Positions 16,627-62,000 of a DNA stretch of 64,000 bases are shown in pieces. Position 1 is the first letter of the stretch. Every line of letters begins with the position of its first letter. The position numbers were made by a program, and so were the translations under genes. The DNA lies in assembly GCA_026707585.1 (NCBI GenBank), contig JAPOWQ010000074.1, forward strand, positions 1 through 64,000. Direction: 5' to 3'. Below the pieces are notes generated by a model. It worked only from the letters and a program-made list of their open reading frames with translations. It was not told where the DNA came from and did not search any database. The stretch is from Chloroflexota bacterium. GTDB taxonomy: Bacteria; Chloroflexota; UBA11872.

Positions 16627-16726
16627 CTCGAAGTAGGCGCGGCTTCGAGCGAACGGCGGCGACTGCGAGAGTTCTTGGCCGCCGGTGCTTGGCGATATTG
16701 ATGCCGGAGCGAAGTGCCGCCGCCGA

Positions 16727-17320
16727 TCACCGCCGCCAGTCGGTGCATTGGCGCCGAAGGTACAGCAGCGGGGCGAAGATGCCGAACAGGCACTACGCGT
16801 TCAGGGTGTAGACCTCGGTGATGATGGCCTGGACCCAGAGATGCTCCGAGGCGGCGAACAGCCAGGCCCCGATCAGTGCGACTGCCGCCGAGACGCCGCG
16901 TAGCCTGGCGCAGGCATACACCGCCCCGCAGGCGAGAGCGCCCAGGACCGCGCTGAGCAGATGGCCAAAGGGAGCAGGCGATCCCCACGGCAGCTTGAGG
17001 AATAGGCTGGGAATCAGGGTGTGCAGCGGGTAACCAGGCGGATGCCGGATGCCCTGGAACCAGCCCACCATGAGGAACCAGCCATCGTCCTCCAGCGCCA
17101 CCGTGTGGGGCATGGTGATGACGTGGAGGGTCAGTGGGCCGGAAACGGCGCCGATACCGGCGACGGCATCGGCAACGCCTGGTCGCGGCCATGATCGGCG
17201 CGAAGCGTCGGGAATCTCGGGTGCGGCCGACTCGGCGCCGCGGCGAGACGTCCACATCCGCCTGCGGCCCGCCGCCGAGCGCCTACGCCGTGAGCGGGAT
17301 TTTCTGGCTCGTCGGGCCAC
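16727..17320 (-). pseudogene. DUF2723 membrane glycosyltransferase-like gene, N-terminal remnant
   Basis: The N-terminal part of a DUF2723 (GT-C type, protein O-mannosyltransferase-like) protein: HVITMPHTVALEDDGWFLMV, then GIRHPPGYPLHTLIPSLFLK, LLSAVLGALACGAVYACARL and EHLWVQAIITEVYTLNA. The acidic DD pair, the HPPGYPL motif and the EVYTLN motif are family hallmarks, lying between membrane helices. An in-frame TAG at 16793-16795 follows; the same frame resumes with CLFGIFAPLLYLRR and stops at 16727. The remaining ~300-500 residues expected for the family are missing; the tRNA-Leu fragment lies 100 nt beyond. The gene was probably cut by the integration event. The stretch from the nominal start at 17320 to about 17160 reads poorly and may not be coding. 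Confidence 0.8.
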
Positions 17321-17514
17321 TGCCGTCGTCCTGGGCCCGAGCTATTGGGACAGGAATCGCGGGCTGCTGGGACGCGCCCTCTTTTGCCGAGTCCCAGACG
17401 CCTTCGCCGCAGCGGGACTGGGCCGGGAGACTGGCCCGATGCCGGGTCATTGCGGCACGCGGATGAGTCGAGGCTCAGTTTCCCGTGACTACTGGGGCAA
17501 CAGACGACCCGATC

Positions 17515-38500: not shown

Positions 38501-41500
38501 TCGGTAGCGGGTCTGGGTGTAGTCGTAGTTCAGCCACAGCAAGCCGGAAGCGTCGCCGGTGCGGCTGAAGGGAAGCTGGGGCTTGTAGAGCCCATCGTAG
38601 AGCTCGCTCGTGGTCGACGTCCCGGTCACGGTGGGAATGTCGTTGTCCCGGACCCATATCTGAGCGGACGAGCTGCTCAGGGCGATGTAGTCGTCGTCCG
38701 CGTCGTTGAGGACGGTGGCGTGGTAGGTGCTGTTGCCGTGCGGCAGGCTGTCGTCGGTCGTCGGTCGGGTGACGGTGACGGACTTCGTTCCGATCGGGAA
38801 TTCGACCGTGATCTCCTCCACGCCGAAGTGGATGTGGTTCCGCGGGCTGGTGATGCCCAGGGTGGGGTCGTCCAGGTCCGCCTGGGTCACCCGGTACCTG
38901 ACCCGCGTGAGCTCGAGCCGGGCCTCCAGCGTAGTGTTCGTGGGGTTGGTGCGGGTGACCGTGAAGGACACCGATTCCCCCTCGGTCACCCAGTTCTGGT
39001 CGCGGGCGACGGTCACCGAGGGCTTGAACCCGTCATCGTCGTAGATGGTGAAGGTGTGGGTGTTGGGCCAGCCGGCCCGATAGTCCGTGCCGTCTTTCAC
39101 GGTGACCGTCAGCTTGCCGATGTCCTCGGCCGTGGCGTCGTCTTCGGTGGGGATGGTGACGATGATCGACTTTTCGCCCTTGGGGAAGGTTGCGGTCTGG
39201 GGCAGTGAGCCGCTCGCGTACTGCCCGGATTCGGTCACGTCGAGGGTCACCGTTAAGGACGGCCCCCTGCTCGAGCGCCGGATCAACTCCAGCTCGATGG
39301 TCTCGCCCTCGGCGATCCGCAGCTGCGAGGTGTACAGGTCCACCAGGCCGAGGTTGACGTCTCGCACGGTCACCGAAGCGGTCGCGGGGCTTCCCGGCCG
39401 GTAGGTCTTGGGTTCGCCAATCGACGTCGGGGCCACCAGGGAGACGGTGACGGTGTGGGGGCCAGCCCGTTCGTCGTCGTCGGTCGTGGTGATGGTGTGC
39501 GCCACGGTGTCCGATCCCGCGGGAAACACCACGGTGTCGCGGCGGCTCAGGGCCTGCGGGGCGGTCTTGTCCACATCCAGCCACACGGTCAGCTCGTCGG
39601 TCGGATCGCCGTCTCGGGTGAGGGTCAGCACCACGTCACTGCCCTCGTCAACGGACTGCGCCTGGGCTTCCAGCGTGACCTCGGACTCGTCGTCGGTGAT
39701 GACGCCCCGGGCGGTCAGCGAGGCCTGCCCGTCCTGCAGGGTCGCGTAGACGGGATTGCTCAGCACCACCGTGAAGTCCTCGGTGAGCTCGGCGAGCCGG
39801 TCGTCGACCACCGGCACCTCGATCACCGCGCTGGTCGCGCCGGGAGCGAAGGTGAGCGTCCCCGTGGATTCGACGATGTCGTCGCTGGCGCCGGGAACGC
39901 CGTCCGTGATCTCGTAGTCGACGGTGATGGTGCGGAGCGACGGCAGCGGGCTGACCATGTCCACCCAGAACTCCGCGGCGCCGTCGGCTTCGCCTACCTC
40001 GACGGCGATGTCCCGGAATCCGAGCACGGGCAGCGGATCTCGGTCGCGCACCGCGATCGTCGCCGAAGCCTGGGCGGGATCGATGACGTAGCCGTCGCCG
40101 GGCTCCAGCGTGACCACGAAGAACGCGTCCGCCTCATTGCCGTCGTTGGCCTCGGTGAGGTACGCCCGCGTGATCCCGGAATTTCCCGTCAGAATCGTGT
40201 GTGTCCGTGGGCTTAGCAGGCCGTCCGGGACCGCGCTGCCGATCTCGGCGTGCGAGACGGTCACCTGCAGCGGCGCCTCGGTGTGGCCGTCGTGGACGAT
40301 CCGGTAGTAGAGCAGGGCGCCTTCATCCACCACCCTAGTGATGGCCCGCACGCCAACCGTGTAGGGATCGTCGTCCAGAATCGTGCCCCGAACCGTGGTC
40401 GGGCCCGTTGGCGTCCAAAACTCCGGCGGCCCGGGGTGCAGCGTGAACTCGTAGTGCCGGTCCGGGGACTTGTAGTCGTCGTCGTCGTCGAAGGTCAGGT
40501 GCAGCAGGGACTCGCCGGGCCCCATCCCGAACGCCATGTATTGCTGCGCGCCGACCGGCCCGCCCGTGATGGTGAACTCGATCGGGTTCCTGTCGTCGCC
40601 GATCCGTTTCAGCATCAGGATCAGCGGGTTGCCCTCGACCACCTCCGGGTGGTTGAAGACGATTTGCACCTGCGGCGCCACGTCGTTGTCGGCCACGTCC
40701 ACCGTCACCGAGTCGGCGCCCGTGATCTGGTACTCCTGCGCCGGCTTCACCGTGAAGGTCAGCGTGCTGTCGGGGATGTCCCGCACGTCGTCCGGCGGCG
40801 TGAGGACTATCTCCTTGACGGATTCACCCGCGGCGAAGACCACGTTGGTCGGTTTGCTCACGGCTTCGCTCGGGTAGTCGCCGTCGAGGAATCCGCCGGG
40901 GTCGTCGACGGATACGCCCACAATCGACTCGACCGCCGTGTTGTTGCCCCGGGTCAGCGTGAAGGTGACCGGCTCGCCTTCGGTGATGCTGGTGGTGTCG
41001 GCGCTGAGGCTGATGGTCGGGAGGTCGTCGTCCTGGATGAGCACCTCCGTTATCGGACTGCGACGGTCTTGACCGTGGATAGTCCAGGAAGCCCTGAGCT
41101 TGAGCGTGTCCCGGGGTTCGTAGTCCACGTCGTCCCCGGTCGCGATGGTGAGCGTTTGCGACTGGGTCTCGGACGCCACGAATGGGAGGAAGCGGTCCGT
41201 CAACGGAATCGCCGGGAAAGTCACCTCGTAGACCCGGTCGGTGGGATTGGTTCCATCGGGTCGCTGCTGATTGGGTTCCCACGTGTCCACCCGCACGGTG
41301 AACGGCTCTATGAGGTACCCGTAAACGCGCTCGACGGAGAGTGTGATCGACTGGCCCTCGGGCACCGGTTGCGGCGCAATCGAGGTGAAGCGGATCTGCA
41401 CGAGTGGCGTCTCGCCGGGGCGATCAACTGTCCGCGATCTGCTTCCGTTCACGGTCCAGTATTGGGCCTCTTCGGCGTCGGTCAGGGCAGTTCCGTCGGC

Positions 41501-43960: not shown

Positions 43961-44386
43961 CCTGTTCGGGCGCTGTTATCGGAGCTCGCGAACGCGACCA
44001 AACAACCCCCCGGATCGGCGGGCAACTACCTCTGCGGAGTCACCCTGAGGCAGGTCTGCTGCCTCCGAGAACAGCACATCACGGCTGCAACCGATGCTTG
44101 GGGAACTAGTCTATATAAACCCCTATGAGAATTGTATGAGAGTATCTACATTCCCTATAGAAGTATTATTAGAGTTGCAAAGTACAGTGCAAAAGCATTC
44201 CGCCTATCCGATCTCCTCGATGGACCCATTGAGAGATACATTTATGGCCCATTCGAGAGATATGCGATATAATAGAACTATTTATGAGAGCACCATGAGA
44301 ATCCCTAGTGGAGATATGAAAGTATTGTGTGATTCATCACTCTCTGGTAGAGTTCGGCGACTCGCCACCGTCCAAGTTCGGTCGGC
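43961..44386. promoter_or_regulatory. AT-rich divergent intergenic region between giant protein and hybrid kinase genes
   Basis: From about 44105 to 44340 the base composition drops sharply to AT-rich, unlike anything nearby. It holds TATAAT at 44268-44273, a TATATAA at 44111-44117, and repeated TATGAGAG/CATGAGA/GAGAGATA words (near 44124, 44135, 44231, 44256, 44284, 44295). It separates two divergent genes, so it probably contains both promoters and possible regulator-binding repeats. No -35 box is clear. Confidence 0.45.
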
Positions 44387-46807
44387 GTGACAGCCGTGCC
44401 AGGTCGCCGTGAGGTGAAGGTGGGCTCCCAGAAGCGCGATCCCGTTTCCCGGATGGCGGAAGCGTGCTTCCGCGTGACCGGCATGCTCGACGTTGACGAA
44501 GCGTTACAGGCCCTGGTGGACGAGGCGCGGTCGATCACCGACGCCCGATACGGCGTACTGGTGACGTTTGACCACGACGGGAGCTTGGATGACTGGGTGA
44601 TGTCGGGGATGAGTCCCGAGGAGCGGCAAAGTTTGTCGACGCTGCCCGCCGGTCAGCAGCTCTTTGGCCACCTGAGACATCTCTCGGGCGCGCTGCGAGT
44701 CCAGAACCTCCAGAGCTACACCGCGTCGCTTGGCATTCCTGCCGACTCAATGCTGGCCGAGAGCTTTCTGGGCGCGCCGATGCGCCATCAGGGCCGACGC
44801 ATCGGATGCGTCTTCTTGGGCGGAAGACTCGATGGCGGTGAATTTACCCCGGAGAATGAGCGAATCCTCGAAATGTTCGCGTCCCACGCGGCGGTGGTGC
44901 TCACCAACGCCCGGTCGTATCGGGACGAACAGCGGGCTCGGCGCGAATTGGAGGCCCTGATCAACGACTCCCCACTCGGCGTCCTCGTGTTCGATGCCAC
45001 GACTGGAGATCTGCTCACGGTCAACGAAGAGGCGCGCAGAATCGTCGGCCTTCGAGGTCAGGGCCATTCGCTGGCCATGTTGTTGGAGACGCTCACGTTT
45101 CAGCGCCCGGACGGGCGTGAGATTGGCCTGGACGAGCTACCACTCACGCACGCCATCACCGCCGGTACCACCGTGCGCGCCGAAGAGATAGTCATCTCGC
45201 ATGCCCACGGCCCTCCGGTCAGCACGCTGGTCAATGCGCGGCCAATCTACTCCGACGACGGCGCGATCGTATCGGTCGTTGCCACGATCCAGGACATGAC
45301 GCCCCTGGAAGAGGTCGAACGACAGCGGTCAGAGTTCCTGGGAACCGTGAGCCGCGGCCTGCGAACACCGCTCGCGACCATCAAGGGCTCGACCGCCTCG
45401 GTGTTGGCGTCGGCTTCCACGCCCGACCCGGCCGAAATGCTTCACTTCCTTCAAATCATCGACGAGCAGGCGGATCACCTGCGCGGATTGACCGCCGACC
45501 TACTCGATGTTTCGAGAATCGAGACTGGAGAATTGCAGATTGCTCCGCGGCCCATCGATCTCGAGGCCCTGGTAACCGACGTCGTCGCCGACTTCCGGAA
45601 CGGTAGAGCCCACCAGCAGATCCAACTGAATATTCCCGGCCATCTGCCACGCATCGGCGCTGATCGAACGAGAATCGGTCAGGTGCTGAGCAATCTGATC
45701 GAGAACGCTGCGTACCTCTCTCCGCCTGCGTCCACGATCACCGTTTCAGCCTCCGAGGAGGCGGCGCATGTGGCGGTCTCGGTCGCCAACGAAGGCATCG
45801 GGATTTCAAGCGACCGCCTGCCGCACGTGTTCAGCAAGTTTTTTCAGCTCGCGGCCGGAGATGACCAATCGAGCAACACAGGCTTGAATCTTGCGATCTG
45901 CAAAGGCCTCGTTGAAGCCCACGGAGGCCGGATTTGGGCCGAGAGTCAGGGACCTACGGATGGCTCGCAATTCACTTTCACAATTCCCACGACAGCGCCC
46001 GAAGATGAGCAACCCGCCGACGGCGATCGCCTTGCCAGGGCAAAAGGTGCAGCGCAAAGCCGGCCAAGCCGGAAAGAGCAGATTCTTGCCGTCGACAGGG
46101 ATCGCCGGCTCCTGCGATCGATTAGCGACGCGCTCCTGCGGGAAGGCTTCTCACCCTCAATCGCCACGGCGACCGCGGATCTCTCAGAGATTGTCCAGGC
46201 GCAACGGCCGGACCTTGTGCTGTTGGACGCCACCCTCCTGCATATCGACGCCGCCCGCCCGGGCCGGCACGTGTCAGAAGTCCTGGACGCACCAGTGATT
46301 CTGCTCTCGGAGCGCGGACCCCAGTGGGACATCGCCTCGGCATTTGACATGGGAGCCGTCGATTACATTGAAAAGCCGTTCTCCACCACCGAGGTCACGG
46401 CCCGGGTTAAGGTAGCCCTGCGACGACGATCCCAGTTATCCGCCGGCGAAGTCACGCGCAATTTCGTGCTCAGAGATCTGACCATCGACTACCACGCGCG
46501 GGCGGTCGCTGTGGCACAGAGTCCGATTCAATTGACCGCAACTGAATACCAGCTTCTTCTTGAGCTCTCGATGAATGCTGGCCGCGTGTTGACCCACGAC
46601 TACCTTCTCCAGAAAGTCTGGGGCAAAGGCTACGCCGGAAACTCACAGTTGCTTCGCACCTATATTCGCTATCTGCGAAACAAGATCGGTGACGATGCCC
46701 GGGATCCCCGCTACATATTCACCGTACCTAGGGTCGGCTACCGAATGCCGACACAAGCGAGACTTCCCGACCATCCCGATGCACGACACCCCGCGTCCCA
46801 AGCCTAA
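44387..46807 (+). CDS. Hybrid sensor protein: GAF-PAS-histidine kinase-receiver-winged helix, with damaged kinase motifs
   Basis: Encodes 806 residues from a GTG at 44387. Order: GAF (~25-180), PAS (~190-300), HisKA (~312-380), HATPase (~425-540), receiver (~567-685) and OmpR-type winged helix (~700-795, ending RVGYRMPTQ). The phospho-acceptor box reads VSRGLRTPL, with Arg323 where SHELRTPL has His. The ATP site is also altered: VANEGIGIS has Asn468 for the usual Asp, and GLNLAI has Asn501 for Gly. The receiver keeps Asp614 (LVLLDATLL), a Ser in ILLSERG and Lys in YIEKPF, but its acidic pocket is VDRD (Arg571). It may act as a ligand-sensing DNA-binding protein without autokinase, or be phosphorylated by another kinase. 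The same layout left a remnant at 3589-4278. Confidence 0.85.
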   Translation: MTAVPGRREVKVGSQKRDPVSRMAEACFRVTGMLDVDEALQALVDEARSITDARYGVLVTFDHDGSLDDWVMSGMSPEERQSLSTLPAGQQLFGHLRHLSGALRVQNLQSYTASLGIPADSMLAESFLGAPMRHQGRRIGCVFLGGRLDGGEFTPENERILEMFASHAAVVLTNARSYRDEQRARRELEALINDSPLGVLVFDATTGDLLTVNEEARRIVGLRGQGHSLAMLLETLTFQRPDGREIGLDELPLTHAITAGTTVRAEEIVISHAHGPPVSTLVNARPIYSDDGAIVSVVATIQDMTPLEEVERQRSEFLGTVSRGLRTPLATIKGSTASVLASASTPDPAEMLHFLQIIDEQADHLRGLTADLLDVSRIETGELQIAPRPIDLEALVTDVVADFRNGRAHQQIQLNIPGHLPRIGADRTRIGQVLSNLIENAAYLSPPASTITVSASEEAAHVAVSVANEGIGISSDRLPHVFSKFFQLAAGDDQSSNTGLNLAICKGLVEAHGGRIWAESQGPTDGSQFTFTIPTTAPEDEQPADGDRLARAKGAAQSRPSRKEQILAVDRDRRLLRSISDALLREGFSPSIATATADLSEIVQAQRPDLVLLDATLLHIDAARPGRHVSEVLDAPVILLSERGPQWDIASAFDMGAVDYIEKPFSTTEVTARVKVALRRRSQLSAGEVTRNFVLRDLTIDYHARAVAVAQSPIQLTATEYQLLLELSMNAGRVLTHDYLLQKVWGKGYAGNSQLLRTYIRYLRNKIGDDARDPRYIFTVPRVGYRMPTQARLPDHPDARHPASQA

Positions 46808-46857
46808 AGCACGGATCCGTTATGGGATACATCGGAAAGAAATGATCTGACGATCAA

Positions 46858-47709
46858 ATGGCTGTTCGTATTGTAACTGACAGTGTTGCTGATTTGCCGC
46901 CTTCGGTTGCTAAGGAGGCGAACATCACAGTCGTTCCTCTCTACGTCCATATTGGCGAAGCTACATTCCTTGACGGCGTAGAACTGAATGCTGATCAATT
47001 CTACTCGCACCTTGCTCGTTCGACCAATCTTCCAAGAACCTCTCAGCCATCTATATCCGACTTCAAGCGCGAGTATCAGAAGATATTAGACGAGGGTCAT
47101 CAGGTTCTCTCAATTCACGTGAGCTCGAAACTAAGCGGCACATATAACTCTGCCGTCCAAGCGAGGTATTTGTGCAGCAATCCGGCCGCCGTTGACGTAA
47201 TCGATTCACAACTCGCCGGCGGTGCGCTGGCTCTTCTTACTCTCGGAGCCGCTACCTGGGCTTCCCATACCGCTGACCTTGAAGGATTGGCGCACCGTGT
47301 GCGCTTCGCTATTCCGCGTCACGAGTGCTTTGTTATGGTCGATACACTCAAGTATCTGCAAATGGGCGGCCGCATCGGAATGGCACAGGCGTTTCTTGGT
47401 GGCATGCTTCGGTTCAAACCGATCGTCTGCATTCGCAATGGCGAAACAAGTCCGGTCGCACGGCCGCGCACCCGGAAACGAGCTCTGGCTCGCTTGGTTG
47501 AGATCGTAAGAGAGCAAGCACCAATTGATCTGCTACACATCAGCTACACGACCGGTGCGGAAGTAGCGGCAAACTTCACAAGAGAGTTGGTTGACGTGGT
47601 GACTCCAGATGCTATTGTACAGTCCCGCTTCGGCCCCGTCCTTGGCACGCACCTGGGTCCCAATGCCATCGCTGTCGCCTTTCGCCGTACCTTCAACTAC
47701 GCAAGTTAA
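46858..47709 (+). CDS. DegV family fatty-acid-binding protein
   Basis: Encodes 283 residues, full length for the family. Hallmarks: N-terminal VRIVTDSVADLPPSVAKE, then VPLYVHIGEATFLDGVEL, PRTSQPSISDF, the SSKLSGTYNSAVQA loop with the conserved Ser/Gly lining the lipid head-group site, VIDSQLAGGALAL, LKYLQMGGRIG, KPIVCIRNGE, and the C-terminal GPVLGTHLGPNAIAVAF. DegV/FakB proteins hold a fatty acid for transfer or phosphorylation by FakA; no FakA gene is in the window. It lies 50 nt after the hybrid sensor gene but is lower in GC, so common transcription is uncertain. Confidence 0.93.
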   Translation: MAVRIVTDSVADLPPSVAKEANITVVPLYVHIGEATFLDGVELNADQFYSHLARSTNLPRTSQPSISDFKREYQKILDEGHQVLSIHVSSKLSGTYNSAVQARYLCSNPAAVDVIDSQLAGGALALLTLGAATWASHTADLEGLAHRVRFAIPRHECFVMVDTLKYLQMGGRIGMAQAFLGGMLRFKPIVCIRNGETSPVARPRTRKRALARLVEIVREQAPIDLLHISYTTGAEVAANFTRELVDVVTPDAIVQSRFGPVLGTHLGPNAIAVAFRRTFNYAS

Positions 47710-47815
47710 AAGCAAGGCTCACCTTCCCAAGGCCATCGTAGGGCCCGATAAGCCGCATGGCGCCGACACACTCTTGCTCAGCATACAGCCATGCTCATTT
47801 GCGTAGCCAAATTTG

Positions 47816-47836
47816 GCCGTAAGTTCAATTTACGGC
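47816..47836. terminator. Hairpin between convergent DegV and response-regulator genes
   Basis: GCCGTAA (47816-47822) pairs perfectly with TTACGGC (47830-47836) across a 7-nt loop. It sits between two converging genes but lacks a T-run, so it may be a weak bidirectional terminator or an operator-like site. Confidence 0.4.
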
Positions 47837-47991
47837 AGAAGTCCAAATCGAATCCAATGTCGATGACCAAGGACGCAACTCAACGCCGCGCCTGATTGTC
47901 AGTCACTCTAGTAGATCTGCGTATGTGGAGGCTGTCACGCTCCCCAACACAACTCAGCGTATAGCCGGTCCGATTACACACTGTCCTCTAA

Positions 47992-48690
47992 TTACTGAGC
48001 AGACGAATTCAAATCATCACTTAATTCGCTACTATCATCCAAAAGACCATTGCGAACTGCCCAAACGACAATCTCCTGCTTCGTTGAGTAACCAAGTTTG
48101 TCCTGGATTCGATACACGGCATTCCTTATGGTTAACGGGCTGTTTCCTCTTGCCTCGGCAATCTCGCTGTAGGAATTACCCTGTGCAAACAACGTAAGTA
48201 TTTCTTGCTCCCTGACCGTTAGGCCCCCGGTCGAACTCGCGCGCGATTGACGTGTCGGCGCTCGAATACCGGAAAACACACGACGCACGACATCAATCGG
48301 CAGTCTCGCTCCACCGACGGAAACCTCGCGTACTGCGCTCAGAAACTCATCTGTGCCAGTAAACTTCTGCAGATAGCCGGTTGCTCCCGCCGCAACGGCG
48401 TTGATCACAGCGTCCTCTTCAGTCGACGCCGTCAGGATCAACACTCGAGTCTCCGGCAGTTTGCCCATAATCTCCCTACACGATTCCACTCCGTCTTTAT
48501 TTGGCATCAGAACATCCATAACCACGACATCTGGAGACAGCGACATCGCCGCCTCCACCGCAGTCAGCCCGTCGTCGGCTTCCCCGACGACCCTAATGTC
48601 GCCGGTATCTTCAAGAATACGGCGAAGACCGTCGCGCACGATTGAGTGGTCGTCCACCAGCAACACTTTGATATCGGTAGCTTCAGACAA
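47992..48690 (-). CDS. NarL/LuxR-type response regulator
   Basis: Encodes 232 residues. The start is a TTG at 48690: it lies 1 nt after the kinase stop and is preceded by AAGGGGGAT, a strong ribosome-binding site inside the kinase's last codons; no ATG fits. The receiver has LLVDDHS, the phospho-acceptor Asp59 (VVVMDVLMPNKDG), LTAS and YLQKFTG (conserved Lys). The C-terminal HTH (LTVREQEILTLFAQGNSYSE, then NSPLTIRNAVYRIQDKLGYS) is of LuxR/NarL type, although the recognition helix has TIRNAVYRI instead of the usual TVKxHV. It is the cognate regulator of the upstream kinase; targets are unknown. Confidence 0.93.
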   Translation of the reverse strand: MSEATDIKVLLVDDHSIVRDGLRRILEDTGDIRVVGEADDGLTAVEAAMSLSPDVVVMDVLMPNKDGVESCREIMGKLPETRVLILTASTEEDAVINAVAAGATGYLQKFTGTDEFLSAVREVSVGGARLPIDVVRRVFSGIRAPTRQSRASSTGGLTVREQEILTLFAQGNSYSEIAEARGNSPLTIRNAVYRIQDKLGYSTKQEIVVWAVRNGLLDDSSELSDDLNSSAQ

Positions 48691-48691
48691 A

Positions 48692-49918
48692 TTAATCCCC
48701 CTTCGGCAGCTGTGCGTACGGAATCTCGCAGACCACTGCCGTGCCTACAAGCGCCTCGCCTGACTGGACCGACAACCTACCGCCAATCCGCTCGGCGTCC
48801 GACCGCATGTTAGGAATACCATGGCCGCGTACCTCGAAATCATCTGGAAGGCCAATACCGTTATCACGCACCGTGAGCCGAATCCTAGCCGAATCAAACT
48901 CCAGAATCACATCCACCGAGGTCGCCTCGGCATGTCGAAATGCATTCGTCAGCGCATTGTGGGCAACCGAATATAGAACCGCTCGAGTCTCCACATCCAG
49001 TTCCTCCTCACCACCCGAAATCGATAATTCCGCCGGTACGGATGTGATCGCGGTAAATGTACCGATATGGCTACGAAGCACATCACCAATAGTCTTGCCT
49101 TCGAAGATGCTGGCCATATTGAGAGGTTTTCGCAGTTCCCACATTGCAGACTTTGCAAGATTAGACGTCGCCTCCAGTGTCGACATCAATTGCTCGTTAG
49201 ACTTGTCCGCTAGATCGATAGCAGACTCGATTCCAAGGTTCACCATATATGCCGCCTGCGCGGAGGTGTCGTGAATTGTGCGAGACACGCGCACCCGGTC
49301 CTCGAGCAACAATCGTTCACTCCTTACAGCCGCGCGTCTCCGAATCCGCTCAATCCGGCTAATCAGATTGACTACTAGTACCACCAGATACATTGTCAGA
49401 ATTCTTGCAAAAAGCACCTTCTCTTCCCGCATCTCAATATCCACTCCCGAGCCCACGAATACACTAATTGCCGTGTAAATCAGAGCAACAAGAGTCGTCC
49501 ACATGACCCACATCACTATGGACGTGAATGCAACGGCAATCAAAGCAAGTGACGGGTAAAATGCTACAAAGAAAAAGTGCTCGAAGCCATTTCCGATTGT
49601 GATAACGGAGGCTATCATAAACACTTCGATCGCGCTTGCTACAAGCATCCAACTCCATGATATTGGCTTCTTCAGCAACAGTCGGACGTGTAAACCGAGA
49701 TTCAGAGTGAGAAATGCAACGGCAAGCAATGAGAGAGCCGTGTATGAATAAAGATCGATCGCCGGCCGGTACGCAAGCAAGAAAAGGCAACCCGATAAGA
49801 ATATCCATCTCGCCCAAACGGCAACTTTAGCCGCGTGCTGGATCTCGTCGGGATGAGTACGCGCGTTCCCTTCAAGCCACTGCCAAATGGCCGTGGTCCA
49901 GCGCTTAGCAGCGACCAT
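48692..49918 (-). CDS. Membrane sensor histidine kinase of the NarX/DesK (HisKA_3) type
   Basis: Encodes 408 residues from an ATG at 49918. Residues ~35-190 contain five or six membrane helices (WIFLSGCLFLLAYRP, ALSLLAVAFLTLNLGL, LTMYLVVLVVNLIS), with no large periplasmic loop, so it probably senses within or near the membrane. The phospho-acceptor is His216 in SRTIHDTSAQAAY, typical of HisKA_3. The ATP domain is intact: HNALTNAFRHA, DNGIGLP, GHGIPNMRSDAERIGG. It overlaps no other gene and is followed by its regulator after 1 nt, so the two are translationally coupled. DNA of this operon is lower in GC than the PKS and giant-repeat genes. Confidence 0.93.
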   Translation of the reverse strand: MVAAKRWTTAIWQWLEGNARTHPDEIQHAAKVAVWARWIFLSGCLFLLAYRPAIDLYSYTALSLLAVAFLTLNLGLHVRLLLKKPISWSWMLVASAIEVFMIASVITIGNGFEHFFFVAFYPSLALIAVAFTSIVMWVMWTTLVALIYTAISVFVGSGVDIEMREEKVLFARILTMYLVVLVVNLISRIERIRRRAAVRSERLLLEDRVRVSRTIHDTSAQAAYMVNLGIESAIDLADKSNEQLMSTLEATSNLAKSAMWELRKPLNMASIFEGKTIGDVLRSHIGTFTAITSVPAELSISGGEEELDVETRAVLYSVAHNALTNAFRHAEATSVDVILEFDSARIRLTVRDNGIGLPDDFEVRGHGIPNMRSDAERIGGRLSVQSGEALVGTAVVCEIPYAQLPKGD

Positions 49919-51969
49919 GCTGGTTCACTCTCCGAACCCTGGCCGCTAGCGGCAGTTCATGTCCTACTCGGGCTCGACGCGGTGAGAGCATAGACATGAC
50001 CATATTGTGGGACAAGTTATATCGCAACCTAACACCACCGGGTACCAACGGTGCCATCATCATGCTGACACCTGATCTATACCCCCCACAATGCCATAGG
50101 AACCCTAACTGGGTTCAGTGATACTCTCACCGAGGGTACCAAGAGACCAATACAGTTTGTCCGTTGAGTCTCGATGGTATTGAGAAACCATGCATGCACA
50201 AGAAGTATATCGCAGAGCTAGCAAACCTGTCTGCAAGCAAGTAGCACTCAATGCCTCTCGTCCCTTCGACGAGCCACCCACATGCCTACTCGACCTCACC
50301 TGAACATAGTCGAGCTGTAGCACCCAGCTTGTAACGTTTATAACGTTCGCAGCGCACTCTGGGATGGGTCGTACGCGTGGCGAGAGTCTCGGGTCGATTG
50401 CCCGGTCGAGTCACGCTTGGGCAGACGGTGCCAGCAGCCCAGTGCTGTCAACAGACGCTCGGGCCGCACGCCGTGCAGGGTTTGCGGGACTCGCCGGCAC
50501 GCAAGTGGCTCCGCTAAAGGCAGTGGTCCGCGGCCGAAGCCGATAGCCAAGAGTCCTTCAATGTCGTGGGAGTCCCATTCATCCGGTCCCAGCGAACTGC
50601 TCAGTACTCCTGGGAGCAACGTCCGCCGGTTGCCGGCGGCGCGTCCACAGGCGGTACAGGCGTTGCTGGAGCGGGCGTCCCGGAGATCAACTCCCACTGC
50701 AGCGTCTCGGGAGGTTTTCGAAGACTCTCCAATCGCCCACGCCGGTCGCTTCATTCCGACGTAGATCAATGCCCACACCACAAGCGATTGCTTGGACTTG
50801 GGGCCAACTGGAGCGTTGACCTCGGCCGAATACGCACGTCCGGAATCGACGCTCTTCTTTCGCAACTCCAAGCCGACTACCGAGCCCACTCCAAAGTTGG
50901 AAGCAATTGGCCGGCGACTGTTGCGCTTAGTCGCGGAGAACCACGCTGTCCGTCCATTGCGGCCAGTGACGATCCGGCGGATGAGGTTCAGGGCTTGAGC
51001 GCAAGTCCCGACCACCGAGTGACTGCGGCTGGAATCGGTCGGTGCAAGGCGTCCAGCTCAGACGACGCAACACGTGAGTATTGCGGAATCCAGGACTCCC
51101 CGGCTCATCCAAGTCTGCGAGACTCGCAGCGAACGGTAAACGTCGCGGCTCTCTGGCCGAGCACGTCTACGAGGAATGTGCACTAACCGGGCCAAGCGAT
51201 GAGGTCAGCTGATCGCCGGACCCACCAATCTGAATCGACTGACATCATTTCGCCCGGCCACAAGCTCGACTTGCGCGCTTGGACAGAGGACCTGATCCCC
51301 GCACGGTGAGGTGCGCCGCCGGCTGCCGATCCGAAACGGCGTTGACCCACCGGCCGGCGCGCCGCCGAAACAGGCCTGGGGCCCAAGGCTGTCGAGTTGG
51401 AGGTCGTGGTCGGCCGCAGCGAGACGCGGCACATGAAGCTGTTTTCCACGTCCAACCGACCGTATTGGGCGCCGGCGCTCAGGTACCTGAGCGCCCAGTT
51501 GCCACCGGCAAGTCCGCGACACGATCGCCCGGAGTCGAGGTCCTCGCGACGAAACTCCGCCTCCACGGCGGCCTTGAGAACCGGGCGCTCGTCATGGCTG
51601 CTGTGGACGTATGCGCCGCACGCATCCGCCGCGGTCCGTCGCTTTGCCACGCGAAGGCGCATCCCCCTGGCAACGGCCACTCACGCTGATTCGGAACTTG
51701 GTGCAATCCCCGCCGCTCTCGTCGGTGTATACGTCAACACTGAGCCACTCCTTGAACTCGCACCGTGCGCCGGCGCCAAACGCCGCCCGATCGGCAGCCA
51801 AGCGGGCCAACTGGTCGTGGCGTCACCGCCGAGGGCAAGACCTGAGTTAGACACGAGTAGCACGTATCGTCCTCCCCGGCTGCTCCGCATCCCGAGTTAC
51901 GGAATCTCCCGGTCTCGATGTCATCCTGCTGATCGCCCGGTACGGACATGTAGGCGTCCAAGTCCTGCG
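49919..51969. other. Two kilobases without a supportable gene
   Basis: Open frames on both strands overlap and lack recognisable motifs. Some minus-strand stretches look faintly protein-like (e.g. EFKEWLSVDVYTDESGGDC near 51740; KSKQSLVVWALIYVGMKRP near 50780) but have no coherent frame. The segment 49980-50330 is less GC-rich and contains short hairpins such as AACCC/GGGTT (50101-50115). With the decayed recombinase on its right, this is probably degenerating mobile-element DNA. Confidence 0.45.
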
Positions 51970-51994
51970 CCGCCGACCGCTAAGAGGTCGGCGG
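51970..51994 (-). terminator. 9-bp perfect hairpin at the end of the recombinase remnant
   Basis: CCGCCGACC (51970-51978) pairs with GGTCGGCGG (51986-51994) across a 7-nt loop and overlaps the recombinase stop codon at 51980-51982. No T-run follows; it may be a terminator remnant or part of an attachment site. Confidence 0.45.
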
Positions 51995-52553
51995 AGCGTG
52001 GGCGTAGAGATTCCCAGTCGTTGTGTTTGTGCGATGGCCCAGGCGCGCGCTAATCACGGGAAGTGCGTGCCCATGCGCAATCAGCAGCGAGACGTCGGGC
52101 GCAAATCGTGGAGCCGTATCGATGATGATAGACGAGCCCGCTCGAATGCTGCATTGACCCACCTATGTACCCCGCTGACGTGCAGCGGCCGACCAGCAGC
52201 GTCGGCAAAATCGAGGCACCGGCAGGACGCAGCGTCCGCAGCGCGACGCTGCTGGGAAACCTGTCATATCCTCTGTTGTTACAGGGCTTCCAGGCGGAGC
52301 ACGACTAAGTCCACGCGTCGCTCGTGCTGGGGCGTTGTCGGTCCAAAACGTGCCCGCGGCCAGGCAAGTGCGTCAAGCCCCGGCGCGCGATGACGCTATC
52401 CCAGTCAAATTCGACATCCGCCCGGCGCAGGCCCCGGAGTTCGCCGCGACACAGTCCGCCGAGCGCCGCAAGCACCAGCAGCGCATCGACCGGCGGCGAC
52501 TGTTTCGTCTCAAAGAGCCGCCGGAATGCCGGGCGGTTCAGCTCCGTAATTCC
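51980..52553 (-). pseudogene. Tyrosine recombinase (phage-type integrase), catalytic domain remnant with frameshifts
   Basis: Reading down from 52553: LNRPAFRRLFETKQSP, LLVLAALGGLCRGELRGLRR (catalytic Arg of the RGEL box), ADVEFDWDSVIARRGLTHLP. A frameshift/stop follows near 52310, with RRVDLVVLRLEAL in another frame. Then VNAAFERARL, HDLR (the HxxR box), a further shift, and SLLIAHGHALPVISARLGHR (LGH) and NLYAH (nucleophile Tyr) to the stop at 51980. All four catalytic elements are traceable across three frames, so this is a recently inactivated gene rather than a chance match. The N-terminal arm-binding and core-binding regions are missing. It points away from the tRNA-Leu fragment 130 nt to its right, the usual integrase position beside an attachment site. 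Confidence 0.8.
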
Positions 52554-52684
52554 ACGCTGCGGCCTACGTGGCTATTCGCGGGTTGCTGCTAGGCTTGGGA
52601 CGACTCGACGGTCGGCGGTGCTCAGTTGGGTCCGCCGAACTTATTAGTCGATCACGCTGGGGGCAATCGCCCGGGCCGGCAGAC

Positions 52685-52738
52685 TTGAGGGGTTAGCGGC
52701 CTTCGGGCTGCGCAGAATCGAGTCCCTCTCTCGGCACT
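52685..52738 (+). tRNA. Degenerate 3' half of tRNA-Leu(GAG), second attachment-site relic
   Basis: TTGAGGGG, TTAGCGGCCTTCGGGCTGC and TCGAGTCCC...CTCGGCA match the fragment at 16572-16626 at most positions. The T-arm no longer pairs (GCAGA against CCCTC) and the CCA end is CTC. GGCAGAC just upstream (52676-52684) resembles a leucine tRNA D-loop, so part of the 5' half may survive in shortened form. Not a functional tRNA. Confidence 0.65.
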
Positions 52739-53002
52739 CGATCCACCGCATTTTGCGCCACATGCTGGACGGCGGTCATCGAGTCGGTATCTGAAGGCGC
52801 CCGTGTGGCTGAAGTGCGCTGGCAGCGGGGCTCTGTCGCCTGACTTGGCGCCCGTCAACAGTCGCGGGCGTTCGGACATTAAGATATGAGGTGCGTGCAT
52901 TGATTCCTAGGCGGACACTGAGCGCGACGTGAACCGACGTCAAAGCCACGCGCTACCAGTGAGGAGACATGCTGTTATGGGCTTCAGACCGGCGAGAAGA
53001 AC

Positions 53003-56000
53003 ATGACCGAGCGAGTTCAAGACCCCGCCTCGACTGCTGAGAGCGTCGTTCCCGCGGCGAATGGCAGCCAACCACCTCCTCAACCCGCGGAGCCCATCGC
53101 GATCGTCGGCATGGCCTGCCGATTCCCTGGGGCGTCGAGCGTGGCCGAATTCTGGCGCCTGTTGGAAGCCGGGGAGAACGCGGTCAGCGAGGGAGATCCT
53201 GGCTCCGGCGTCGGACGAATGGGCGAGCTTTTCCCGGACGATCGTGTCCGGAGTGAGGCCTGCAGATTCGGCGCCTTCGTGGAGGACCTGGACCAATTCG
53301 ACGCGGAGTTCTTCCGGATTTCCCCGGTCGAGGCGCAACTGCTGGATCCGCAGCAGCGCATGATGCTGGAGACGACCTGGCTGGCGCTTGAAGACGCGGG
53401 GATCAACCCCGATCGGCTCAAGGGCAGTCGAACCGGCGTCTACACCGGGATCAGCAACGACGAATACCGAATGCTGGTCGTGGACTCGGTGAGGCCAACC
53501 GAAGCGGCTGGCTGCCTCTACGCACTGAGCGGCACCAACCTGAATGGCACGAGCGGACGGGTCTCTTTCGTCCTTGGTCTCATGGGCCCCGCAAAGGCCG
53601 TCGACGCCGCCTGCGCGTCGTCCCTCGTGTCGGTGCACGACGCCGTATCAGACCTCCAGTACGGGAAGGCCGACCTTGCCATTGCCGCCGGTGTGCAAGC
53701 GATATTGAACGGACGCATCTACGAGCTCCGGGCCGATTCGATGATGTTGTCCCCAGACGGGCAGTGCAAGACCTTTGACGCCTCTGCCAACGGCTACGTC
53801 CGCGGCGAAGGATGCGGGGTCGTCGTTCTCAAACGGCTGAGCGAGGCCGAAGCCGACGGCGATCGGATCTGGGCGGTCATCCGCGGCTCGGCGGTGAACC
53901 ACGGCGGGGCGAGCACGGGTCTGACCGTTCCGCATACGCCCGCGCTGGAACAGGTCATTGAAGCAGCACTGTCGCAAGCCGGTGTCGCCGCCTCGGAAGT
54001 CGACTACCTGGAGGCGCACGGAACCGGAACGGCGGTCGGCGATCCCATCGAAATCGATGCCGTGGCCAACGTCTACGGCCGCGAACGCCCGGCCGACCAT
54101 CCGCTACTGATAGGTTCTGTAAAGACCAACATCGGGCATCTGGAGTCCGCCGCAGGCGTCGCCGGGCTCATTAAGGCAGCAATGGTCGTCAATCGCGGAG
54201 TGATACCGAAGCACCTGCACTTCCACAATCCCAACCCGGCGCTTGACTGGGATCGCCTCCCGATCCAGATCACCTCGGAAATGTCGGACTGGCCGGACGG
54301 CTATCGAAGGCCACGTTTGGCCGGCGTGAACTCGTTCGGCATCTCCGGGACGAACGCCCACATCCTGGTTGAGGAGTACCCCGGGCTTAACGGCGCGCCA
54401 GACCAAGAGTCGCCGATGGCGGGCGTCCCGCAGACGGTGGCCGTATCGACGCCCCGTCAGGCGCATCCCGACGAGCAGATCGATCAGCGACGGGATCGCT
54501 TCCTGCCGCTGTCGGGCAAGTCAGATCAGGCCCTCCGCGCACTTGCGCAGCGCTACCTGACATGGCTCGACGATCGGACCGCGACACTCGCTACTGAGGA
54601 TGCCGGCTCGAATCCGCTTCTGTCGGATATGTCCTGGACCGCCGGCGTCGGTCGAAGCCACTTCGATCATCGGTCTGGCGTCGTGTTTAGCGACACCAGG
54701 TCGTTGCGGGAGCAACTCCGATCCGTCGCCGAGGCCGGTCCAGTTGGACGGCCTCGGACAGTGACCAGGGTGGCCTTCGCCTACACGGGGCAGGGCAGCC
54801 AGTGGATCGGCATGGGCAAGACCCTGTATGAGACCGAGCCGGTAGTGCGATCGGTGCTGGACCGCTGCGAGGCCGTATTCCGAAAAGAGCGTGGGGCCTC
54901 GTTGCTGGACGTGATGTTCGGCCGGCCGGGAGCAACCGGCGAACTGGGCGACACCGCGTGGGAGCAGCCGGCCCTCTATGCGCTGGAATGCGCCCTGACC
55001 GCCCTCTGGTCCAGCGTCGGCATCCAACCCGACGTGGTCATGGGGCACAGCGTCGGCGAGCTGGCAGCGGCGCAGGCGGCTGGCGTCTTCAGCCTGGAAG
55101 ACGGAATGCGGTTCGCGGCGGCCCGAGGCGCCCTGCTGTCGGCAACACCACGCGGCGCCATGGCCGCGATCTTCGCGCCTCCGGCACTCGTCGCGTCAGC
55201 GGTTGCGGAGGCCAACGCGGCCTCCGATGACGTCGGTTTGAGCGTCTCGGCCGACAACGGCGCCCACCAGGTAGTGAGTGGTACCGCGGCCGACATCGAG
55301 ACCATTTCAACGCGCTTTGAATCACAGGGCATCCGGGTACGACGGCTGAACACAACCCGCGCATTTCACAGCGCCTTGGTCGAGCCAGCCCTCGTCAAGC
55401 TGGAAGCTTTCCTTCGCGCTCTGGCATTTGAGCCGCCGACCCTGACCCTCGTCAGCAACTTGACCGGCCAGAAGGTGGAGCCGGGCACCACGCTTGATAG
55501 CGCCTATTGGCGGCGCCACGCTCGACAGCCCGTGGCGTTCGCGGGCGGCGTCAGAACGCTGGCCGACCTGGGCGTTGACCTGGCAATTGAGATTGGTCCG
55601 CACGCGGTGCTTGGGCCCATGACTACGCTGGCCTGGCCCGATCCGGCGTCTGGGCGGGACGCGCCCGAGGCCCCAGGCGTGCTCGCCAGTCTGCGGCGAC
55701 CGCCACGGGATGCCTCGACTCCGGAAGCCGAGAGCAGCTTCGTTGACGCCGTCGCGGAAGCCTATGAGGTGGGGTTGGAAATTTCATTCGAAGGACTCTT
55801 TGCTGGCGAGACTCGTCGTCGGATCTCGCTTCCGAGCTATCCATTCCAACGCCGCCGCCATTGGCTCGAGCCGTCCAGGCAACGGGGGCCAACCGCCGGT
55901 CACCCCTTGCTCGGCGTCCGTCACGAATCCGCTCGCGGCGAAGTCACGTTCGAGACGGAAGTAATGCCGTCCGATCCCGAGTGGCTGAACGACCACCGGG

Positions 56001-59000
56001 TTTTCAATCGCCTCGTGGCTCCCGGCGCCCTCTACGCGGCCATGGCGGCCGCCGCCTCGCAGGCCGAAGGCAGCGGCGCGCTTGTCGTGGAAGACATGCA
56101 ACTGCACAGCGCCATGGTCTTTTCCGACCAGGGTTCCGAGGACGGATCAGGCGACGAAGGCCGCACGATGCAGGTCGTTCTCGACCCTGCCGAGCAATCG
56201 TCGTCGCGGGAAATCCAGATCTACAGCCAGGGCAGTGACGAGGAGTGGACGCTGCACGTGGAGGGCCGAGTGCCGGCGGTCGCCCCTTTGCCCGAAGGCG
56301 TCGATCGGGTCGATCTCGAAGAGCTGAAGTCGCGTCTTTCGCCGGCCGATGTGCCGGGGTATTACCAGGCCAAGACAAGCACCGGGATCGATCTGGGTCC
56401 GTTTTTCCGCACCTTGGAGAACGCCTGGTCTGGTCCGGGTGAGGCCCTGGCTGAAGTCCGCCTGCCCGATTCCGCTGGCCGAAACGACCTGGACGTTCAT
56501 CCGCTCGTGCTTGACGGCTGCTTCCAGGTGGTGGGCCTGGCTCGCAACATGTCCGGCGCACCCGGCGAGGCAACCTACCTGCCGTTCGGCTGGGACCGGC
56601 TGTGGCTCACGCGCCGCCTGCCAGATCGAGTCTTTTGCCACGTTTCCATGGACGAGGCTTCCCAGGAGTCAGAGTCGAGTGAGCCGCCGGAAGTCCTCAG
56701 CGGCGAACTTCGCATCTACGATCCCAACGGCGTGCTCCTCGGTGGCCTGACCGGTTACACGGTCAAGCGGGCCACGCGGGCCGCCCTGCTCTCGGCGGTC
56801 GAGGGCATTGATGATCTGCTGTATGAAGTGGCGTGGCGCGAACGCGAACTGCCACCCGGAATCGAGGCCGCAGACTTCTTCCCAGGACCGACCGAAATTG
56901 CCGCCAGGTCGCAGCTGTTCACCGGCTACCTGACCGACGCCGGAGTCGACCCGCAACGTCGAAACGCGCTGCTGGCCGACCTGGAGCGATGGTCGCGCTC
57001 ACGCGCGCTTGCCACGTTGGAGGACCTGGGGTGGCAGCGGATCGTCGGCGAAACCGTGGATCCCCAAGCCCTGCGGACTCAGCTCGACGTTCTTCCGGAG
57101 CACCAACGCGTATTCCGCCGAATGTTCGAAATGCTCGCCAGGTCAGGTGTGGTGGAGGAGACGAACGACGGATTCACGGTACTCGTGGGACCGGATGATC
57201 CGCTGCCGGACCGCATGCCAGGCGATCTCGAAGAGTTCGCTGACGGGATGATGGACCGGTACCCGGACGGCCAGACCGAAATCGGGCTCTTCCGACGGTC
57301 TGGCCGCGCGCTAGCCGAGGTCCTCCGCGGTAACGCCGATCCGCTGACACTGCTCTTCAGCAGCGGCGAACCAACCGCGGCCGATCTCTACTTGAAAGCG
57401 CCCGTTGCGCGCGCCGCAAACCGAATGCTGGCGGACGCGGTCCAGCCCCTGGTCGCCGCGCTGCCCGACGGACGGCGGCTTCGAGTGCTTGAAGTCGGAG
57501 CCGGTACGGGGTCCGCAACCGCATCCGTGCTTCCCGAGCTTCCCGAAGGTCGGTTCGACTACACCTACACCGACATTTCCGCGGGCTTCTTCGCTGAGGC
57601 CGAGGCGCGCTTCGGCGATGGCGACGGATGCATTCAGTACCGTCCGCTGGACATCGAGCGAGACCCCATCGCCCAGGGCTTCGATCGCCACGGCTACGAC
57701 CTACTCATTGCCTCCAACGTGCTTCACGCCACGCGCTACCTGGAGGACACGCTGGGACACTGCCGAGATCTGCTTGCGCCGTCCGGGCAACTGATCGCGC
57801 TTGAGAACCTCAGCGGCGTCGGATGGATGGACCTGACCTTCGGGCAGCTGGACGGCTGGTGGCGGTTTGCCGACGACTACCGCCCGCACCACGCGCTGGC
57901 CGGTCCACTGGTCTGGCGCCAGGCGCTCGGAGACGCGGGTTTTGAGGCGGTCGAAGTCCTCGGGGTTGACGAATCTGACGCGACCCAGACCCTGGACAAG
58001 GGCGTAATCGTGGCGCAGGGTCCGGCGCAGGTGGCGGAGCCTCCGGGCGTCTGGGTGCTTACAGGCGACCACGCCGGCCTGGCGGAGGAACTCGCGGCGG
58101 AGCTGTCCGCGCGCAATCAAACGGTGGTTCTGGCGAACGCCGAAACGCCGGACGCGGACAAACCTGCGATAGCCGGCCCCGCCATTCTCCGGCCCGCGCT
58201 CGACACCGAAAGTCGTGACGAGTGGCAGTCGCTGATCGAGAGTCTGCCTCGGGACATCCCCTTCAACGGCGTCGTACACCTTCAAGCGCTCGATGGCCAC
58301 GGCGCTCAGGCAACCACCGTGGAAATAGGAGCGGACGTTCGCCACGCCGGCGCCAGCGCCCTGGCCCTGGTGCAAGGCGTGGCCGACGCTGACGTCCTTC
58401 CCGCCAACGGCCTTTGGTTCGTAACCCGTGGAGCGCAGATTCTGGAGCGGGAGCGCATCGGAGAGATCTCCGGCGCCGTCCTTTGGGGACTGGGCAAGGT
58501 CGTCGCCCTTGAGGCCGCCCAGCTGCAGCCGCGCATGATCGACCTGGAACCCAATGCCACCCCCCTGCTGGCTGACCTCTCAAACGAACTGATGTATCCC
58601 GACCAGGAAAACCACATTGCCTACCGCTCAGGGCGCCGCCTTGGAGCACGCCTGGTACGGCCCGGGGCCGCGGCCCGGCGGCTAACGCTGCCGGACGATT
58701 CATCGTGGGTTCTCGCGCCGGACCGCAGCGGCGTGTTCGATCAACCGGAGGTCAAGCAGCTTCCTGGACGCACCCTTGAGTCGAAGGAAGTTCGCGTCAC
58801 CGTCCAGGCAGCCGGCCTCAACTTCTGGGATGTCTTCCGATCGCTCGGGTTTATCGAGGAGGGCGATCTCGGCCGAGAAATGTGCGGTCGCGTTCTCGAT
58901 GTCGGCTCAGAGGTCTCGACCGTCAACGTCGGCGACCACGTGGTTGGCCTGGGCTTTGGAGCCTTCGGCCCGGAGATGGTCACCCGCGAGGAACTGGTGG

Positions 59001-62000
59001 CGCCGGCTCCCAAAGGAATGTCGGTCTCGGACCTCGCCACCATCCCAAGCGCGTTCGTCTCGGCGGCGCTTTCCTACCGGTACTCAGGGCTGGAAGCTGG
59101 CGACCGGGTGCTGATTCACGCCGGCGCCGGCGGAGTCGGCCTGGCGGCCATCCAGTTGGCCCAGGCGGCTGGGGCGGAGGTATATGCCACGGCCAGCGCT
59201 CCCAAGCAGGCATATCTGCGCTCGCTCGGCGTCGAGCACGTGTTCGATAGCCGCCAGATCAGCTTTGGCCAGGAAATCCTCGAAGCCACCGGCGGCGAGG
59301 GCGTGCACGTGGTGCTGAACAGCCTCACGAGCGAGGGCTTTATCGAGGCCAGCCTGTCGTGCCTTGCCCATGGTGGTCGATTCGTCGAGCTGGCCAGACG
59401 CGACATCCTGACCGAGGACGAGATGGCGGCCGTACGTCCGGATGTCGCCTACGACATTCTGGAATTGGACGTCCTGAAAAAGACCGATCCGGCCTGGGTC
59501 GGCGAGGTTCTGCGCGAGGTGATGGCGCAACTTTCGGCGGGCGTCCTGAAGCCCATCACCCATAGTCGATGGCCTCTGGCCGAAGCTGGAGCTGCCCTGG
59601 ACTTCATGCGGTCGGCTCGGCACGTGGGCAAGATCGTCTTGACGGCGCCGCCAATCGTGAGCGGCCGCCTTCGGCAGGATCGAACCTACCTGGTGACCGG
59701 CGGCCTCGGCGGCATCGGCTGCGCGGTGGCCGGCTGGCTGGCTGATCACGGCGCCGGCGCCATCGTGCTCAACGGCCGCCGCGACCCGGATGCTGAGGCT
59801 CAGGCGGCCATTGATGCGCTGCGCGGACGCGGAGTCCGGGTTGAAGTTGAGCTCGCGGATGCCACCGACTCCGCGGCGATCGATCGGATGTTGGAGCGAA
59901 TCGACGCGACGCTGCCACCGCTCGGTGGCGTCATCCACAGCGTCGGCGTGCTATCGGACGCCGCGCTCACCAATCAGACCTGGGCAAGCTTCGAGCAGGT
60001 GCTCTGGCCCAAGATCCTGGGGGCATGGCACCTGCACCGTGCGACGCAGAACCGCGACCTGGATCTCTTCATCCTCTTTTCCAGCCGCGTCGGCGTCATG
60101 GGCAATCCCGGCCAGGCCAACCACGCCGCCGCCAATGCCTTTCTCGATCAGCTTGCCGGGCACCGGCGTGCCCTCGGACTTCCAGGCCAGGCCATTGCCT
60201 GGGGCGCCTGGTCAGAGATCGGTGAAGCCGCCGAACAGCGGGAGCGAATCGAGCGACGCCGGGCGGCACTCGGTGGCCGCTGGTTCACCCCGCAGCAAGG
60301 CATCAGGGCCCTTGAACGGCTGGTGCGCCAGGACGCCACAGCATCGGTCGTAATGTCTATGGACTGGTCGGTATTTGAAGAAGCCGTCGAAGAGCGGCCG
60401 GCCTTCCTCGAAGATCTGCTGTCGTCCGCCGCCGACGACGGCGCCGACACCGCCGCCGCGTCCGAAGACCTGCTCACCCGGTTGCGAAGTGCACCTGCGG
60501 CCGAGCACCAGACGGTGCTTTCGTCCTTCCTCCAGCAAGAAGTGCAGGCCGTCCTGCGTCTGTCCACAACACCGGCGCCCACGGTCGGCTTCTTCGATCT
60601 CGGGATGGACTCTCTGATGGCGGTCGAGCTTCGCAACCGCCTCAACCGCGCGTTCGCCGGCGAATACACCGCGTCCAACACCATGGTATTCGACTATCCG
60701 GACATCGAGACCCTTGCCGAGCACCTGGTCGAAGAACTCGGCCAGGGGGATGAGACCCCGGCCCTGCCCGCGGTGGCCTCCCCGGAGCCCCGGCCGCGGG
60801 CTGCACCTGCGGACGATGGCATCGCAATCATCGGCATGGGATGTCGCTTTCCGGGCGCGGAAAGTCCGCTCGCCTTCTGGCGACAGCTGAAGGCTGGTGT
60901 GGATTCGGTAAGAAACGGACGGCAAGACTCAGGTACTTGGTACACCGCCTTTGGCGACCCAGCCAGCGAGGATCCCGTCTTTCGACGCGGTGCCTTTCTG
61001 GATGACATTGAGCGGTTCGACTCACGCTTCTTCCGCATCGCGCCAATCGAAGCGAGACTGATGGATCCACGCCAGCGGCTGCTGCTGGAGACCACGTGGC
61101 ATGCGCTCGAGGATGCTGGAATCGATCCCGACGGGCTGCGAGGGAGCAAGACCGGGGTCTATATCGGCGTTGGCGGCAACGAGTACAGGGACTTGATCCT
61201 CGCCAGCGGCGAGGAGGACAGTTTTGTCGGGACTGCCGGCAGCATGACCGTTGGGCGTCTGTCGTATGTCCTTGGTCTGGAAGGACCCGCCATGCCGCTG
61301 GACATGGTCTGCGCATCGTCGCTGGTCGCGGTGCACCAGGCCGTTGCCGGCCTGCACCGTGGGGAAGCCGACATGGCGCTGGTTGGCGGGGTCAACGTAC
61401 CCCTGTCCCGCGGAATCACACGTTTCCTCAATGACCTGGGCATGTTGTCAGACAGCGGATGTTCCCGGACGTTCGACGCCGAAGCCGACGGCTTCGTGCG
61501 AAGCGACGGCTGCGGCATGGTCGTCCTGAAGCGACTGAGCGACGCGGAAGCCGACGGTGACCGGATTTGGGCAGTAATCCGCGGCTCCGCCATCAATCAG
61601 AACGGCGCAAGCGCCGGCCTCACCGTGCCGAACGGTCCAGCCCAGGAGCAGGTGCTCAGAGACGCGCTGTCGAGGGCCGGTGTCGATCCGGCCGACATCG
61701 ACTATCTGGAAGCCCACGGCGCCGGCTCGGCTCTCGGCGATCCCATCGAAGTCCAGGCTGCGGCGTCCGTCTACGGCCAGGGCCGCGACCCCGACCGGCC
61801 GCTGCTAATCGGCTCGGTGAAAGCCAATATCGGCCACCTGGAGTGGGCGGCCGGTATTGCCAGTCTGATCAAGACCGTGCTGGCGATGCACCAGCGGATG
61901 ATCCCCAGGCAGTTGCATTACAGCACCCCGAGCCCACAACTCGACTGGGATCAGTTGCCCGTACGGGTGGCGTCGAGCGACACCCCGTGGCCGACCGCGC

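Follow-up and report, generated by a model that had tools for sequence, protein, structure and literature searches.

A decayed tRNA-Leu(GAG) half very probably marks the right end of a composite genomic island in a Chloroflexota bacterium

Introduction

How did a damaged 3′ half of a tRNA-Leu(GAG) gene come to lie at 52.7 kb of a Chloroflexota contig, close to a broken tyrosine recombinase and 36 kb from a second, perfect copy of the same half? Insertion of foreign DNA at tRNA genes is a common route of gene gain in bacteria. Islands inserted at tRNA genes by tyrosine integrases carry an intact tRNA at one end, the displaced 3′ half of the old gene at the other and an integrase near a terminus, and successive islands can stack at the same gene. 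An earlier note on this DNA had proposed that the decayed half was a second relic of such an integration and that the DNA between the two halves could be one block. Here we ask which DNA was inserted, in how many pieces, and by which enzyme.

The analyzed stretch (the window) covers 64 kb from the left end of contig C63, which is 139,052 bases long and belongs to a 3.92-Mb genome of 75 contigs. This genome is called G000, and C44, C72 and similar labels without a genome prefix denote its contigs. It was compared with 20 relatives, 12 of which belong to the same genus (G001 to G012); nine of these 12 presumably come from sponges, judging by their bin names.

Results

The two tRNA halves of the window and the recombinase remnant are the following.

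16572..16625 (+): relic A, a 3′ half identical to the intact tRNA-Leu(GAG) (54/54), probable internal junction of two elements
51896..52607 (−): dead tyrosine recombinase fragment, residues 163-397 of 430, in three frames
52608..52684 (+): putative right arm of the last inserted element; its last bases, GGCAGAC, adjoin the core TTGAGGGG, likewise in the island of relative G008
52685..52738 (+): relic B, decayed 3′ half of the chromosomal tRNA-Leu(GAG), very probably displaced to the right end of the island (attR)

Relic B matches the 3′ half of tRNA-Leu(GAG) at 45/54 bases without gaps, and the sole better match within the window is relic A. Apart from a stub at 11.18 kb, only these two relics score at least 32/54 on either strand, and the best score in 50 Markov-1 sequences of 64 kb with the window's dinucleotide composition was 31/54. 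Chance likeness is ruled out by this difference, so the degenerate half reported at 52.7 kb is real. With the relic A region as query, relic B was also recovered from the own genome (E 1.6e-10). ARAGORN found no intact tRNA in the window. Among the 20 own-genome loci matched by the relic A region, it located one intact tRNA-Leu(GAG), at C44:7954-8040 (−), the gene that the earlier note had suggested looking for. An intact PF00589 tyrosine recombinase with an open frame of 394 aa begins directly 3′ of this tRNA, and a peptidase-C26 gene adjoins it on the 5′ side. The genome thus shows the arrangement of an occupied site, with the intact tRNA of C44 at one end, an integrase beside it and relic B at the other end. 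The proposed old integration at tRNA-Leu(GAG) is supported, and relic B marks a junction of the same kind as that at 16.6 kb.

To the right of relic B lies one large gene that is also found in relatives.

52739..63346 (+): resident flank, a short intergenic stretch followed by a PKS gene (53003-63346), next to the intact tRNA in four relatives

The pair formed by the C44 flank and the tRNA is present in 9/12 same-genus relatives. In four of the 12 (G005, G007, G011 and G012), the peptidase flank, an intact tRNA-Leu(GAG) and the PKS gene are contiguous. Alignments to the C44 flank start at base 7951 or 7947 in these four genomes (81-86% identity) and cover 16.7 kb at 83% in G012, 11.2 kb at 85% in G011 and 11.3 kb at 81% in G005; in G007 they cover 0.66 kb at 86% and stop at the contig end. 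On the PKS side, the match begins at window base 52684, at the tRNA core, in G007, G011 and G012 (88-93%); in G005 it runs from the tRNA half for 77 bases at 83%, before the PKS gene follows at 70%. Four other genomes (G001, G004, G006 and G010) have, after the tRNA, a match to C63:68.2-72.0 and then to C63:121.5 kb onward, with the PKS block located elsewhere. We found no match to the flank in G002, a distant one only in G003, and no close match to the tRNA in G009.

Because four relatives hold an intact tRNA between both flanks, relic B would be the displaced original 3′ half (attR), and everything to its left would therefore be inserted DNA. We regard these empty sites as decisive for this reading, which very probably makes the window up to 52,684 a composite genomic island; they also rule out that relic B is a secondary site unrelated to the real tRNA. 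Accordingly, the description of relic B as a second relic holds in that the relic is real and falls short in that, by the empty sites, it is more than that, namely the ancestral chromosomal half. The boundary assigns the giant repeat protein, the hybrid sensor, DegV and the two-component pair described below to the island cargo and leaves the PKS gene outside.

As a separate observation, the PKS block (53003-63346, extending to about C63:67460) lies beside tRNA-Leu(GAG) or its displaced half in the own genome and in G005, G007, G008, G011 and G012. The block may itself have moved, being elsewhere in G001, G004, G006 and G010.

The two halves of the empty site are found on different contigs of the own genome: C44 carries the flank and the tRNA, and C63 carries the old 3′ half and the PKS gene. 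Queries with the contig ends gave no overlap between them. C63:1-1558 recurs at 84% identity at C68:10437, as does C44:1-120 at 83% at C65:341793; since both contig ends are copied elsewhere, the contig break falls in repeated sequence. We propose that the inserted DNA comprises C44:1-7953, window positions 1-52684 and anything between both contig ends. Its size would then be 52.7 kb or more in the window, with a further 7.95 kb on C44, divided among no fewer than two or three tandem units.

The left part of the window contains a second kind of repeat, in addition to the tRNA halves, and the cargo of a small unit.

1..16571: island DNA left of relic A, at least two units; base 1 is the contig end
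11014..11176 (+): arm A again, 87% identical to 16420-16581 and cut off within the core (TTGAGGGGCT), a truncated junction
11513-14128 (+): RCC1-repeat protein, small-unit cargo (Pfam)
15170-16129 (−): REase-ARP / PD-(D/E)XK nuclease, small-unit cargo together with its neighbor (Pfam)
16420..16571 (+): arm family A, the right arm of the element that precedes relic A; copies at 11014-11176, on C73 and on G001:C78

The copy of arm A on C73 is 81% identical, and that on G001:C78 is 84% identical over 170 bases and is followed by a decayed tRNA half. As the arm recurs at 11014-11176, at least one small unit, of about 11.18-16.57 kb, is left in the window. Positions 1-16.5 kb are mostly without collinear copies in the relatives. 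The nuclease pair (14265-16095) is 80% identical to G006:C27:44676-46506, on a contig that also carries a tRNA-Leu relic. PADLOC run on 10 proteins, nine of the window and one of C44, revealed no convincing defense genes.

Relics A and B and the stub ending at 11176 all lie on the (+) strand, in the orientation of the target gene. Relic B is more decayed (45/54) than relic A (54/54), so that the relic nearer the intact gene would be the younger. The common orientation and the stronger decay of relic B are as tandem accretion predicts. We also asked whether the stub was homologous to relic A on its right side, and this was not significant (235/1000 shuffles as good). Relic B differs from the tRNA at 9/54 sites and relic A at 0. 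Between the own genome and G007, 83/591 four-fold sites of the PKS start and 40/182 intergenic positions differ. As a rough reading, these divergences would fit an insertion soon after the split from G007.

Further relic-like tRNA-Leu halves occur in the own genome at C73:7179-7256, C72:27330-27372, C56:2799-2846, and on C59; compared with the relatives, pieces of C72 match different contigs. On C59 (L063:17127-17156) and on G001:C3:16872-16927, a tRNA-Leu half is followed by integrases that are 88.8% identical to each other, and the arm CGTCAAACCTGATGGGACGGC is shared. These two represent one element family in two species.

From the positions and states of these junctions, we infer the following order of events. 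A mobile element carrying a copy of the tRNA 3′ half would have recombined with tRNA-Leu(GAG) through a tyrosine integrase, and its copy would have made the tRNA whole again at the left end, which now lies on C44. The old half would have ended up on the right, next to the PKS gene, free to decay to 45/54. Later elements would have reused the rebuilt tRNA and stacked in tandem, leaving behind relic A and the 11.18-kb junction; positions 16,626-52,684 would most likely be the oldest, right-most unit. Displaced tRNA halves would in this way order successive insertions.

The right-most unit has the following content.

16626..52684: the roughly 36 kb from relic A to relic B, probably one integrated element
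17515..43960 (−): island cargo, a giant protein of Calx-beta repeats in two ORFs (4113 and 4721 aa) that overlap
44387-46807 (+): hybrid sensor kinase with output domain (Pfam)
46858-47709 (+): DegV (Pfam)
47992-49918 (−): response regulator and histidine kinase (Pfam)

The two giant ORFs meet at 29795-29856 in different frames and perhaps form one protein of about 8,800 residues, split by a frameshift or an assembly error. Of this element, 24.0-44.0 kb and 44.0-52.7 kb were compared with the 20 relatives, and neither stretch has a collinear copy there, the cargo at 44387..49918 included. The 24-44 kb stretch had no match at E≤1e-50 in 12/12 same-genus genomes; 24.0-44.0 kb had one match at 67% in G014, which belongs to another family. 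Over 44.0-52.7 kb, we obtained scattered weak matches of paralog type, mostly at 64-71% with short pieces up to 86%, plus the integrase stretch. Relatives carrying these genes in the same context free of tRNA relics, which the earlier note had named as fatal to its proposal, were thus not found among the 20 for these two stretches.

In G008 the site is occupied as well, with an intact tRNA on C60 and a displaced half (55/55) on C101 before its PKS gene. Relic A and the G008 tRNA are followed by the same nine bases (ACTCGAAGT), and the same six (GGCAGA) precede relic B and the G008 core. These signatures are short, extending 9 and 6 bases past the core, with chances of 8e-6 and 4e-4 for one comparison (per-site 0.27), before counting the several comparisons made. 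Longer homology to G008 was not significant, either for the arm at relic B (549/1000 shuffles as good) or to the right of relic A (265/1000). The G008 island at this tRNA carries a GmrSD-type restriction protein as cargo, on G008:C60 (L139:2162-4132).

The recombinase remnant next to relic B was recovered by tblastn with the intact integrase of C72, in three consecutive segments (52607-52344, 52347-52093 and 52090-51896, all −) of 60-64% identity (E 1e-53). The first ∼162 residues, the N terminus, are missing. The Arg region (GGLCRGELRGL), HDLR, LGHRT and NLYAH are distributed over the three frames, confirming a frameshifted tyrosine recombinase with Arg, HxxR, LGH and Tyr elements. The remnant is weak to single-frame searches, and its place was not among the matches when the own genome was scanned with PF00589 (E≤10). 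Its homology ends about 77 nt from relic B, not 130 nt as first described.

Discussion

Three other accounts of the locus have to be weighed. One is that an inversion or translocation with its breakpoint in the tRNA split the C44 flank and tRNA from the PKS side, relic B being the broken end. C44 and C63 have no physical link in the assembly, and the region is otherwise rearranged, as shown by G001, G004, G006 and G010, where sequence from C63:68.2 kb onward follows the tRNA and the PKS block has another location. This account is nonetheless very improbable: an integrase directly follows the remaining tRNA, which is undamaged, and the window holds a further 3′ half free of mismatches. Site-specific insertion predicts exactly this combination, and a random break would not. 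In another account, the recombinase remnant would be the enzyme that made the relic B junction. It lies close to the relic, where G008 has an intact 333-aa integrase in the same place and orientation beside its displaced half, and an integrase of its subfamily lies on G001:C78, 2.6 kb from the tRNA-Leu relic with arm A. However, the remnant belongs to the C72/C30 subfamily, and tblastn with the C44, C59 and G008 integrases gave no match at its position (E≤0.05). The related integrase of C30 has its C-terminal end against tRNA-Gly(GCC), and the C72 and G008:C65 copies resemble each other no farther than the C terminus, whereas here the C terminus faces away from relic B and the N terminus is gone. 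No tRNA-Gly or tRNA-Leu end was detected by the C terminus (51600-51960; 241 and 253/500 shuffles as good). The proposed pairing of remnant and relic fits their proximity but is weakly supported, as subfamily and orientation speak against it. The remnant probably did not make the junction, a role that we consider quite unlikely for it, and is likely a fragment of another element.

This fragment bears in turn on the number of pieces between the relics. As a truncated integrase of a different subfamily lies inside the right end of the block, at least one other element was probably once there, and 16.6-52.7 kb could be what is left of several elements that no longer have their inner junctions. 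The ORFs examined at 50.3-51.0 and 52.0-52.4 kb, in which no Pfam family was found, would also fit such remains. No intact integrase was identified from relic A to relic B, and the block's native enzyme was not seen where G008 has its own. On the other side, relics A and B alone reach 32/54 in the window, besides the 11.18-kb stub, and the outer ends share short signatures with both ends of the G008 island. Because both ends carry these signatures, we favor one element and consider a multiple origin rather unlikely. With no collinear copy in the searched parts, the DNA between the relics is best read, as the earlier note had suggested, as one block that probably entered as one piece.

tRNA-borne islands with tyrosine integrases and tandem accretion have reportedly been found at the asn-tDNA of Klebsiella and as a composite island in Shewanella, and accretion of ICESt1 is said to have been described by Pavlovic in 2004. 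The present locus differs from islands of this type in its target gene, host phylum and cargo (the giant Calx-beta protein, the hybrid sensor and DegV). Of the same phylum are the Dehalococcoides islands at ssrA, which, according to passages of one report, are arranged in tandem, each bounded by a repeat of the 3′ end of the RNA gene, carry strain-specific cargo and in some cases lack an integrase (PMC3146451). The likeness lies in the tandem arrangement at one RNA gene with 3′-end repeats; the same passages give a tmRNA target, a serine recombinase and 20-bp repeats (PMC3146451), in contrast to the tRNA-Leu(GAG) target, tyrosine recombinases and 54-base repeat found here. The locus is of a known kind, a tRNA-borne tandem island, and differs from the Dehalococcoides case in target, enzyme class and cargo, not in kind. 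Literature searches limited to open-licence PMC papers listed none that we recognized as a description of this site, which can now be inspected by name as a hot spot in related Chloroflexota that are uncultured.

More tentatively, and with less than even confidence, we suggest that tRNA-Leu(GAG) could be a genus-wide loading dock in these uncultured Chloroflexota, common to several unrelated integrase subfamilies, with an array of at least 100 kb (C44, C59, C73, C56 and the window) exchanging cargo between species. If this were true, the Calx-beta surface protein of about 8,800 residues and the nuclease genes would pass between species.

Farther along C63, a stretch of about 49.5 kb (C63:72000-121500) has flanks that lie about 1-2 kb apart in G001, G004, G006 and G010. 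It represents another insertion specific to the own genome, within which the window's RCC1-repeat gene has several matches.
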